A DNA stretch of 64,000 bases from Marinobacter shengliensis (GTDB taxonomy: Bacteria > Pseudomonadota > Gammaproteobacteria > Pseudomonadales > Oleiphilaceae). Numbering within the stretch: position 1 is the first letter of the stretch; each line of letters opens with the position of its first letter. The position numbers and the translations under genes were made by a program. The notes beneath the pieces are model-generated. The model was not told the DNA's origin. It worked only from the letters and a program-made list of their open reading frames with translations, and did not search any database. Of the stretch, positions 30,849 to 54,148 are shown piece after piece. The stretch spans positions 62,001 to 126,000 of the forward strand of contig NZ_PXNO01000019.1 of assembly GCF_003007715.1 (NCBI RefSeq), in the 5' to 3' direction.

Positions 30849-30867
30849 GTGCCCAGAGAAATGCAAA

Positions 30868-30883
30868 CCAAGCGCTTGCTTGG
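30868..30883. promoter_or_regulatory. Operator-like palindrome before the acyl-CoA dehydrogenase
   Basis: CCAAGC-GCTT-GCTTGG is a perfect inverted repeat and also contains the 10-bp palindrome CAAGCGCTTG. It lies 59 bp before the dehydrogenase start. TetR-family repressors of fatty-acid or branched-chain catabolism often use sites of this shape; the regulator is not in the window. Confidence 0.45.
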
Positions 30884-30941
30884 TGACGGAGATTGCGCGA
30901 CACTCGTCCCATCGAATAACAAGTACACCGGGAGCGAATCC

Positions 30942-32081
30942 GTGTCTGACTACTTCAACGAAACTCACGAACAGGTGCGCCAGACCGCGCGCAAATTCAT
31001 CGAAACCCACGTACGCCCTTACATAGACGACTGGGAAGAAGCCGGCGAATTCCCCCGGGAAATCTACCAGCTCGCAGGCGACGCAGGGCTTCTGGGCATT
31101 GGCTTCCCTGAGGCTCTGGGCGGCATCGCTGAAGGCGACATTTTTATGAAAGTGGCGGTTTCCGAGGAACTGATGCGTTCCACCTCCGGTGGCTTTGTGG
31201 CCAGCATCGGCTCCCTGGACATTGGCCTGCCGCCGGTGGCCAAGTGGGCGAAGCAGGAAATTCGGGAACAGATCGTACCGCCGGTACTACGCGGCGAGAA
31301 AATTGCTGCACTGGCCGTTACCGAACCCGGCGGCGGCTCCGACGTGGCGAACCTGAAGACCCGTGCGGTAAAAGATGGTGATCACTACATCGTCAACGGC
31401 AGCAAAACGTTCATCACCAGCGGCATCCGCGCCGATCACTACACGGTGGCTGTGCGCACCGGGGGCGAAGGCCACGCTGGCATCAGCCTGCTGCTGATCG
31501 ACCGCGACACACCGGGCTTCTCCACCGGCAAGAAACTCAAGAAAATGGGCTGGTGGGCGAGCGACACTGCCGAGCTTTTCTTTGAAGACTGCCGGGTACC
31601 GGCAGACCGCCTGATCGGCGCCGAAAACGCCGGCTTTATCGCCATCATGAGCAACTTCCTGGCCGAACGCCTGAGCTTGTCCGTCATGGCCTACATGACC
31701 GCCCAGCTGGCCTACGAGGCGGCCCTGGATTACACCAAACAACGCCAGGCCTTCGGCCGCAACATCGCCGGCTTTCAGGTCACCCGCCACAAGCTGGTGG
31801 ACATGGCGACGCAGATCGATATCGCCCGGGAATACACCTACCGCTGCGCCGCGCTGATGCAGGCCGGCAAGAACCCGATCAAACAGGTGGCCATGGCCAA
31901 GAATTTCTCTGTGGACGTGTCCGAAAAGGTTACCCGCGAAGCGGTACAGCTGTTCGGAGGCATGGGCTATATGCGGGAATCCGTGGTAGAGCGGCTGTAT
32001 CGGGATGCCAAGCTTCTGTCCATTGGCGGCGGCACCACGGAAATCATGAAGGAGCTGATTGCCAAACAGATCAGGCTTTAA
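30942..32081 (+). CDS. Acyl-CoA dehydrogenase
   Basis: A 379-residue flavoprotein that oxidises acyl-CoA to enoyl-CoA. FAD/substrate motifs are LAVTEPGGGSDVANLKTRA, NGSKTFITSG, QAFGRNIAGFQ and QLFGGMGYMRE, with the terminal GGGTTEIMKELIAKQI. The GTG at 30942 with GGGAG at good spacing gives the family-like start VSDYFNETHEQV; a reading from further upstream would begin in the terminator/operator region. Chain-length preference cannot be read off. It stands alone, ending 11 bp before palindrome copy B. Confidence 0.92.
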   Translation: MSDYFNETHEQVRQTARKFIETHVRPYIDDWEEAGEFPREIYQLAGDAGLLGIGFPEALGGIAEGDIFMKVAVSEELMRSTSGGFVASIGSLDIGLPPVAKWAKQEIREQIVPPVLRGEKIAALAVTEPGGGSDVANLKTRAVKDGDHYIVNGSKTFITSGIRADHYTVAVRTGGEGHAGISLLLIDRDTPGFSTGKKLKKMGWWASDTAELFFEDCRVPADRLIGAENAGFIAIMSNFLAERLSLSVMAYMTAQLAYEAALDYTKQRQAFGRNIAGFQVTRHKLVDMATQIDIAREYTYRCAALMQAGKNPIKQVAMAKNFSVDVSEKVTREAVQLFGGMGYMRESVVERLYRDAKLLSIGGGTTEIMKELIAKQIRL

Positions 32082-32092
32082 TCGTCGGAGTT

Positions 32093-32205
32093 AGGGGCGT
32101 ACCAGGAAGCTTTCCAAAACACGCTCCTTCGGCACGTCCATGTGGCGCTTGGGCTCCGCCATCCATGGCTCCGCACAGTTTTGGAAAGCTCCCTGGTACG
32201 CCCCT
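32093..32205. repeat. Long palindromic element, copy B (core type I)
   Basis: The arms at 32093-32120 and 32178-32205 are complementary at 27 of 28 positions. The 57-bp core (32121-32177) matches copy A at 54 positions and copy C in reverse orientation. The outer arm sequence (AGGGGCGTACCAGG...) is unrelated to the arms of A and C, except next to the core where all share a TCC-A-AAA type end. Confidence 0.92.
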
Positions 32206-32315
32206 TGCTGAACTTAGTGCGAGCTACCAACCACATTCGCAGAGACTTTGGGCGTCGGTGAGGTGGGCCTTCCCAAAACGCTTGAGGGCCGAAAGCTCCC
32301 GCAAAGGTTCGGACG

Positions 32316-32420
32316 ACCATCAGGCAGCACTTGCCGAAAACGTGGAGCGCCATGGATGGCGCGACCGAGCCCTACAGGGATGTATTCACGGGCGTTTTTC
32401 GGAAAGTGCTGCCTGATGGT
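32316..32420. repeat. Long palindromic element, copy D (core type II)
   Basis: The arms (32316-32342 and 32393-32420) are complementary over about 26 bp with one mismatch and one extra A. The core (32343-32392) differs from type I but again forms two hairpins: GCGCCAT-GG-ATGGCGC (32347-32362) and TACA-GGGA-TGTA nested in GCCC/GGGC (32369-32393). It shares the CCATGGATGG motif and the CCGAAAACG arm end with type I. It lies about 120 bp before ppa. Confidence 0.88.
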
Positions 32421-32475
32421 TGTATGCACCACAGTCAACGACCAAGGTTTAGTTTCGAATGGCAAGAGACTTCCG

Positions 32476-32538: not shown

Positions 32539-33066
32539 ATGCAATTCGACAACATCCCCGCTGGCAAGAACCCGCCAGAAGACATCTACGTAGCCATCGA
32601 GATCCCGGCTAACAGCTCCCCGGTCAAGTACGAGCTGGACAAAGACATGGGCGCCCTGCTGGTTGACCGGTTCATGGCCACCCCCATGTTCTACCCGGCC
32701 AACTACGGTTTCATCCCCCACACCCTGGCTGATGACGGCGATCCCATCGATGTGCTGGTTGTTACCCCTTACCCCATTCAGGCCGGCTGCGTTATTCGCT
32801 GTCGCCCGGTAGGCGTGCTGAACATGGAAGACGAGGCCGGTGGTGATGCCAAGCTGGTTGCGGTACCCCACGACAAGCTGACCACCACCTACCACGATGT
32901 CAAAGAGATCGACGACCTGCCGGAGTTGCTGCTCAACCAGATCCGTCACTTCTTCGAGAACTACAAGACACTGGAACCCGGCAAGTGGGTGAAGGTACAG
33001 GGCTGGGGCAACGCCGCCGAAGCCAAAAAAGCCATTGAAGATGCGGTTAACGCCTACAAAGGCTGA
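32539..33066 (+). CDS. ppa: Inorganic pyrophosphatase
   Basis: A 175-residue family I pyrophosphatase. The signature [11 protein letters not shown] with its three metal-binding Asp residues is intact, as are [16 protein letters not shown] and the C-terminal [18 protein letters not shown]. It hydrolyses pyrophosphate and so drives biosynthetic reactions. AGGAAGGATC precedes the ATG as a strong ribosome-binding site. Confidence 0.97.
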
Positions 33067-53968: not shown

Positions 53969-54011
53969 AAGCCCTAACTCCAAAGCGTCTCACTCCCAAA
54001 GTCTGGGAAGA

Positions 54012-54119
54012 CGTGTCGGGAAGGCCTGTCCAAAAATTTGCGGAGCCATGGATGGCGGAGCAGAAGCGCCACATGGATGTGCCGCAAGGAGCGTTTTTTG
54101 GACAGGCCTTCCCGACACG
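54012..54119. repeat. Long palindromic element, copy C (core type I, reverse orientation)
   Basis: The 25-bp arms at 54012-54036 and 54095-54119 are perfectly complementary. The core (54037-54094), read on the minus strand, matches copies A and B at all but about five positions, including both CATCCATG hairpins. The arm sequence (CGTGTCGGGAAGGCCTGTCC) is unique to this copy. It lies between the EgtB-like gene start and the RND pump terminator. Confidence 0.93.
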
Positions 54120-54148
54120 GCTTCGCACTCCAATGAAGGATAACAAAG

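Follow-up and report, generated by a model that had tools for sequence, protein, structure and literature searches.

Several described systems resemble the element analysed here. Nearest in form is the TwoAYGGAY RNA (RF01731), which, as described in PMC4333381, shares with our element two AYGGAY-type loops within an outer stem and tandem G.A pairs in a stem. It has been termed a family of unknown function and was proposed as a CsrA-binding RNA, in Clostridia (PMC4333381), and the 2010 table of its taxa includes gamma-Proteobacteria (PMC2864571). For CsrA itself the SELEX consensus given in PMC7652899 is RUACARGGAUGU, with ACA and GGA invariant and with loops that are mostly six nucleotides long and AC/GU closed; the CsrA dimer bridges sites that are 10–63 nt apart, best at more than 18 nt, and very stable stems are considered unfavourable for its ligands (PMC7652899). 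Paired CsrA-consensus GGA sites at bridging distance are also the feature that our element has in common with CsrB, RsmX, RsmY and RsmZ, from which it differs in being dispersed, with two main sites in each copy and a closing stem of about 29 bp.

A second group of relatives are DNA repeats. REP elements and REP dimers are, like our element, high-copy intergenic palindromes that often stand head to head (PMC3733652). In Halothiobacillus neapolitanus, CGTC-1 dimers lie within 41-bp palindromes containing attcacgGGTaTTTC (Di Nocera 2013, PMC3733652); compared by the description in that paper, this palindrome resembles the right half of our module, and a form of the module is probably already in print there, without a link to CsrA (the string 'csra' is absent from the main text of PMC3733652). 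The module is unlike a REP in having more than one short hairpin. No unpaired CGTC/GTAG tag is found in it; its CGTC-like start is base-paired to the opposite side of hairpin 1, and the two sides of this helix covary. The literature that was searched yielded no report joining CsrA with MITEs or REPs. A paper on intergenic TAACTGA repeats (PMC4679880) reportedly mentions CsrA.

Copy D and its neighbours in the 64-kb window

The window (the whole 64-kb stretch of Marinobacter shengliensis DNA that was analysed) contains four copies, A to D, and the remains of a further one. Positions are those of the window.

32313..32423, +, copy D, whole element (28-nt arms and 55-nt core)
32313..32340, +, 5' arm of D, partner of 32396-32423
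32347..32362, +, hairpin 1 of D, GCGCC-AUGGAU-GGCGC, with tandem G.A at both sides (32345-32346 with 32363-32364)
32369..32393, +, hairpin 2 of D, with ACAGGGATGT at 32374-32383 and the hexaloop AGGGAU at 32376-32381
32396..32423, +, 3' arm of D, partner of 32313-32340
32250..32300, +, decayed remains of a third copy, situated between A and D (5' arm and core start, hairpin 1 loop absent)
32093..32205, −, copy A, head to head with D, with a type I core and a sub-threshold match to RF01731
28309..28413, −, copy B, type I core (G000:C19:90317-90405); sub-threshold RF01731 match
54007..54124, +, copy C, type I core (G000:C19:116021-116110); sub-threshold RF01731 match

The first-pass annotation described D as a long stem around two small hairpins, and both the arm pairing (26 of 28 positions Watson-Crick, one G.U, one mismatch) and the fold bear this out. 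The minimum free energy (MFE) of the D RNA is −70.7 kcal/mol (z = −9.3; none of 200 dinucleotide shuffles is as stable) and the MFE structure contains both hairpins. The CCGAAAA at the core-side end of the arms is likewise present in the sequence. Hairpin 2, with the sequence C-UACAGGGAUGU, had been annotated as UACA-GGGA-UGUA and is re-read here as UAC-[AGGGAU]-GUA. The opposite strand of D also folds strongly (−63.4, z = −7.7), and both strands of A, like those of D, fold very stably. The proposal that the two core types have the same architecture is supported as regards the shared plan but fits A, B and C less well, since their single-sequence MFE structures merge both GGA regions in one long core hairpin and lack the two GGA hairpins. 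The motif ACANGGANGT has four sites in the window, one each in A, B, C and D and none elsewhere (1.5 expected; 9 of 100 shuffles reach 4).

D and A, on opposite strands, both lie between the stop of ORF 30849-32081 (+), presumably acyl-CoA dehydrogenase-like, and the start of ORF 32539-33066 (+), which we take to be ppa (inorganic pyrophosphatase). By eye, the decayed copy between them has an intact counterpart (L099) at the equivalent place in another genome, G061. Elsewhere in the window, 27161-27340 matches 6S RNA (RF00013, 96.4 bits), upstream of an ORF that looks, on our assumption, like a 5-formyltetrahydrofolate cyclo-ligase.

Loops, stems and strand of the recurrent module

As DNA queries, D alone finds 32 places in its own genome (G000) and A finds 45. 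A covariance model (R1) built from 21 copies finds at least 121 at E ≤ 0.01 (the best 150 of 1710 candidates were scored), 119 of which lie above 33 bits. Five of the 121 were excluded before all arm and loop counts: two halves cut off where contigs C1 and C3 end, the weakly matching place C19:171424, and truncated or degenerate copies at C28:8595 and C28:116580. Full copies, with arms of at least 20 bp, number at least 116. The median arm length is 29 bp (range 12–32, first 50 copies). Contigs C1 and C3 end within what is apparently a single copy (G000:C1:1-59 and C3:1-59), and the element probably broke the assembly at these ends.

The core is modular, a left part L1 or L2 being combined with a right part R1, R2 or R3. 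Among 50 classified copies, 24 are L1R1 (the type of A, B and C), 15 are L1R2, 5 are L2R3 (the type of D) and 6 are other. The D-type core, whose genome-wide recurrence was to be checked with a covariance model, does recur, as one corner of this modular set, and the hybrid L1R2 is commoner than D's own L2R3. The earlier idea of two core classes survives only in that D's core is unlike that of A, B and C; the left and right hairpins mix, and these combinations among the 50 copies rule out a strict division into two discrete classes.

The module is most constant in its two GGA loops. Of the 116 cores, 114 contain two or more ANGGAN sites, against 3% of base-shuffled cores; in these 114 the A, G, G and A are fixed and both N positions vary. 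The first site reads C-ANGGAN-G in all 114, the second is ACANGGANGU in 98, and the second starts 23–25 nt after the first in 112; 24 copies have an extra AAGGAG 3' of hairpin 2. The second site, a GGA loop with flanking ACA...GU, agrees with the published SELEX consensus for CsrA, and the spacing lies within the 10–63 nt that the dimer is described as bridging (PMC7652899). The stems of hairpin 1 often exceed the length of most of the SELEX hairpins (PMC7652899).

Covariation was scored in three alignments: A1 (21 of 22 type II copies), A2 (20 of 28 type I copies) and A3 (38 sequences, of which 34 come from 78 filter-passing sequences of many genera and 4 from G000). The multi-genus set was found by a pattern that fixes hairpin 2, which leaves hairpin 1 and the arms as its only independent parts; a hairpin 1 stem is present in 95 of its 114 members (with GGA in the loop or next to it in 90) and arms of at least 20 bp in 84. 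The proposed structure gives standard pairs in 97.1% (A1), 98.9% (A2) and 91.7% (A3) of cells, and none of 500 shuffles reaches the covariation score in any of the three; the arms contribute most. As for the D-type hairpins, where covariation had been put forward as a check, two-sided changes are seen at the three outer pairs of hairpin 1 in A1 and at all nine of its pairs in A3, whereas the inner pairs of hairpin 2 are invariant in A1 and one of three varies in A3, which is little evidence either way. The inner pairs of both GGA hairpins are nearly invariant in the type I alignment A2, and the two-hairpin core of type I therefore rests on few covarying pairs.

The two strands are not equivalent. 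At arm positions 1–24 of the 116 copies (2784 cells) there are 2705 Watson-Crick pairs, 43 G.U, 5 A.C and 31 others when read on the GGA strand, an excess of G.U over A.C with p = 1.4e-8; in 84 copies of the multi-genus set the numbers are 85 G.U and 11 A.C. Since each G.U would read as A.C on the complementary strand, it is the fold of the GGA strand that is kept, either as RNA or as single-stranded DNA.

The first-pass annotation suggested that a common factor recognises a folded three-way junction. Both the shared plan and a common factor are supported. The loops are invariant and the stems and arms vary in a compensated way, so that the factor more likely recognises two GGA loops with their fixed spacing than the shape of the junction.

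A search of G000 with RF01731 gives 53 places at E ≤ 1, and all 53 coincide with R1 places. The best score is 40.3 bits against a gathering threshold of 43, so none of the 53 reaches it; copy A scores 32.5 bits on the minus strand, D has no match at E ≤ 10, and two D-type paralogues (C23:537780 and C23:538075) are among the 53. None of 18 loci from other genera is over the RF01731 cut-off. D, like the wider set, does have two hairpins with AYGGAY-like loops within an outer stem, though A, B and C differ in their MFE folds. The module further departs from TwoAYGGAY in its more than 100 copies per genome, its variable, co-varying arms and its scores below threshold. Because all matches fall below threshold and D itself is unmatched, D is not assigned to the family; the module is TwoAYGGAY-like.

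Orthologous loci, mobile contexts and distribution

Sixty genomes of the genus have a ppa match, and the best 30 loci were compared. The element is on the ppa side in 11, with D's core in 10 of these including our own copy; the eleventh (L099) sits at the place of the decayed copy. With L099 set apart, and with L102, L104 and L106 aligning out of register, six in-register orthologues of D can be compared with it: core identity is 93–100% and arm identity 62–98%, with pairing almost complete. Of the six core positions that vary, three are loop N positions and three are in the core tail. At the A locus, G009 has related arms around a core of a different class, so cores are exchangeable between copies. 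The closest relative, G073, lacks copy A, which was apparently lost by deletion between GGGCGT repeats, judged by eye. A special copying mechanism for the private arms was considered and rejected, since orthologues of D and A show compensated drift and the arms in another genome, G113, are shared in subfamilies. The arms may well look private because those of old copies drift with compensation while loops and core stay under selection.

In some other genomes the module lies in contexts of mobile type. In G113 the context is MITE-like: a 209-bp unit, bounded by inverted ends of 18 bp (CTAAATACGTGTTCCGAA and its complement), has the module at its centre and is complete in 4 of 6 loci, two of the complete units sharing their right flank. 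A 64-base query from the left end gives at least 62 matches, of which 44 exceed the terminal repeat in length (the best 40 of 87 candidates were scored), and both ends together with the module were found by pattern in 13 of 30 loci, in one case within a longer unit. The arm subfamilies of G113 differ by paired changes. Among its loci (L346-L375), some cores are rearranged with a GTACATGGATGTAC hairpin (L366, L367), and the arms of L351 seem drawn from two subfamilies. G140 has outer flanks common to nine loci, with terminal repeats of about 19 nt in L327 (by eye). There (L326-L334) the module is nested inside a larger repeated unit with outer inverted repeats, and further hairpins with the loop CATGGATG or CATCCCTG stand just outside the unit, for example GCGGTGCATGGATGCACCGC in L326. 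In one Sedimenticola assembly three copies (L275 twice, L279; a fourth, L221, has short arms and is excluded from the count) lie between inverted REP-like hairpins of the type GTAGGTCGGGCTTCAGCCCGAC, in which GTAG is intact at 4 of 6 ends. Copy L255 of a second Sedimenticola assembly has no REP flanks. L210 and L274 show inverted repeats of about 25 nt at some distance from the module, perhaps further vehicles. Around the copies of G000 neither a terminal inverted repeat nor a REP was found, and in this they differ from MITEs. Because vehicles with unrelated ends carry the same module, it appears to be a passenger with its own function and not a transposase end.

The module is present in all 37 genomes of the genus that were searched, with 3 to at least 77 matches per genome, and in 4 of 21 genomes from other families of the order. 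Among the matches listed for the R2-type hairpin 2 pattern are Halomonas, Microbulbifer, Stenotrophomonas, Ectothiorhodospira, Sedimenticola, Methylotuvimicrobium, Marinobacter and others. Loci L233 and L280 share core types with G000, in agreement with its probable place in Marinobacter. A wider model (R3), run on 276 evenly drawn Gammaproteobacteria with at most the best 16 candidates scored per genome, matches at least 55 genomes and at least 50 of 216 genera. For a co-occurring protein family, which had been suggested as a check, csrA is favoured: it is present in 54 of the 55 element-bearing genomes and in 188 of the 221 others (Fisher p = 0.005, ignoring kinship and genome size). The test is weak because csrA is nearly universal in Gammaproteobacteria. 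Element-bearing genomes without a csrA match are G255 and G032 (62% complete). Among 58 relatives, element-free families included, csrA is present in 57, the exception being G032, and it therefore does not account for the patchy distribution of the element.

A possible CsrA/RsmA-binding module and its alternatives

On balance D is probably a CsrA/RsmA-binding RNA module that has been spread by miniature mobile DNA. The sense strand would be transcribed mostly by read-through from the neighbouring gene; the stem of about 29 bp would close the core, and a single CsrA/RsmA dimer could dock on the two GGA hairpin loops, which lie 23–25 nt from each other. Every copy that is transcribed would then be a docking site, and more than 100 copies could form a diffuse sink coupling free CsrA to transcription; the copies may also, or instead, label 3' ends by a stable RNA-protein complex. 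Miniature mobile elements would deliver new copies; in old ones selection would keep the loops and core while the arms drift with compensation, hence their private look. The loop consensus, the spacing, the G.U strand bias and the covariation speak for this reading, together with the core of D being kept at the ppa orthologues, the coincidence of all RF01731 places with the element, the co-occurrence with csrA and the vehicles; that the element is transcribed, binds CsrA and titrates it, and that the copies of G000 arrived by such a mobile route, we infer. Several observations pull the other way: the MFE folds of A, B and C, the long stems of hairpin 1, the failure of RF01731 to match D, the csrA-less carriers G255 and G032 and the csrA of element-free families, and the lack of a terminal inverted repeat or REP around the copies of G000 and of REP flanks at L255.

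The gene context is also less clear-cut than this reading would suggest. By a home-made gene caller, checked by eye on a few ORFs of the window, 112 of the 116 copies are intergenic. For single copies the upstream gene is co-directional in 54 of 82 (p = 0.005, uncorrected for several tests), and the orientation of the downstream gene shows no bias (44 of 81). Sigma-70-like promoters are not enriched upstream of the copies (mean below that of shuffled flanks; high scores in 1 of 116), and a TTTT follows within 25 nt at 2 of the 116 copies in the sense direction and at 13 in the antisense direction. Of 17 neighbouring pairs less than 700 bp apart, 16 are head to head (left copy minus, right copy plus), one of the 16 including a weak match; one pair is on the same strand and none is tail to tail. 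Examples are G000:C23:452754-453028, C27:696761-697023 and C2:43496-43762; the distance between arms is 47–195 nt in 13 such pairs, and the same order is seen in G041, G039 and G046. Head-to-head pairing places one copy of each pair in antisense. This antisense copy, the mild orientation bias, the lack of promoter enrichment and the few T-runs all weaken the RNA-level reading.

The main rival is a role in mobility at the DNA level: the folded form would be single-stranded DNA of the sense strand, with no RNA function, and its hairpins would be read through their GGA loops by a transposase-like protein, much as RAYT recognises REP hairpins. This reading is unlikely. It would suit the mobile-type contexts of G113, G140 and Sedimenticola and the weak orientation bias towards genes, and selection on folded single-stranded DNA would likewise favour G.T over A.C, so the strand asymmetry speaks for it as well as for RNA. 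The head-to-head neighbours, too, recall REP dimers, which are often arranged in this way (PMC3733652). The loops argue against it: even in their free N positions they follow the consensus of an RNA-binding protein (PMC7652899). So do the unrelated ends of the vehicles (the terminal repeats of G113 and G140, the GTAG-type hairpins), which imply that the module is not the terminal site of a transposase, and the orthologous locus, at which the core is kept while the arms drift.

Doubtful to a further degree is a generic 3'-end element, whose long, stable stem would end or protect transcripts in both directions and whose core would be a passive cap. The intergenic position of nearly all copies (112/116, by the same gene caller), the preference of single copies for a place downstream of a co-directional gene and the very stable folds of both strands in A and D are what it would predict. 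A passive cap would not, however, keep two ANGGAN sites at a fixed spacing, conservation would be expected in the arms and not in the loops, and T-runs are few after the copies on either strand.

Free-standing Csr/Rsm-type sRNA genes of the RsmY/RsmZ kind, multiplied in the genome, would explain two or three GGA sites per copy and the strong fold, but this very improbable account was rejected because, unlike CsrB/RsmY-type genes, the 116 copies show no promoter enrichment and no terminator T-run of their own, and the spacers of head-to-head copies show no visible conservation between species (by eye).

If the CsrA/RsmA-binding reading of the module is right, it gives the TwoAYGGAY RNA a concrete, testable function (the family being that described in PMC4333381) and explains palindromes with private arms. 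Should the elements bind CsrA, some species would have more than 200 extra sites per genome, with none detected in others of the same order; and if the module travels with MITE-like and REP-like units, mobile non-coding DNA would be carrying a defined RNA-protein interaction site. We tentatively suggest that unrelated miniature mobile DNAs of Gammaproteobacteria could repeatedly have taken up a mimic of the CsrA/RsmA double site, so that parasitic DNA would bear decoys of a global regulator of its host, that the hundreds of sites in a genome would set a transcription-scaled titration floor, and that hosts may have domesticated the module; we hold this possible, though not probable.

Two minor features of the flanks and arrangement may be added. 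Within 60 nt on the 3' side, CCAAA occurs at 57 and AGGCTA at 18 of the 116 copies, against 8 and 0 in a control stretch and 14 and 0 upstream; this weak flanking motif fades without a clear boundary. In G046, same-strand tandem triplets of the element occur at C27:404792-405342 and C22:165553-166045, with a spacing of about 233 and 205 bp.
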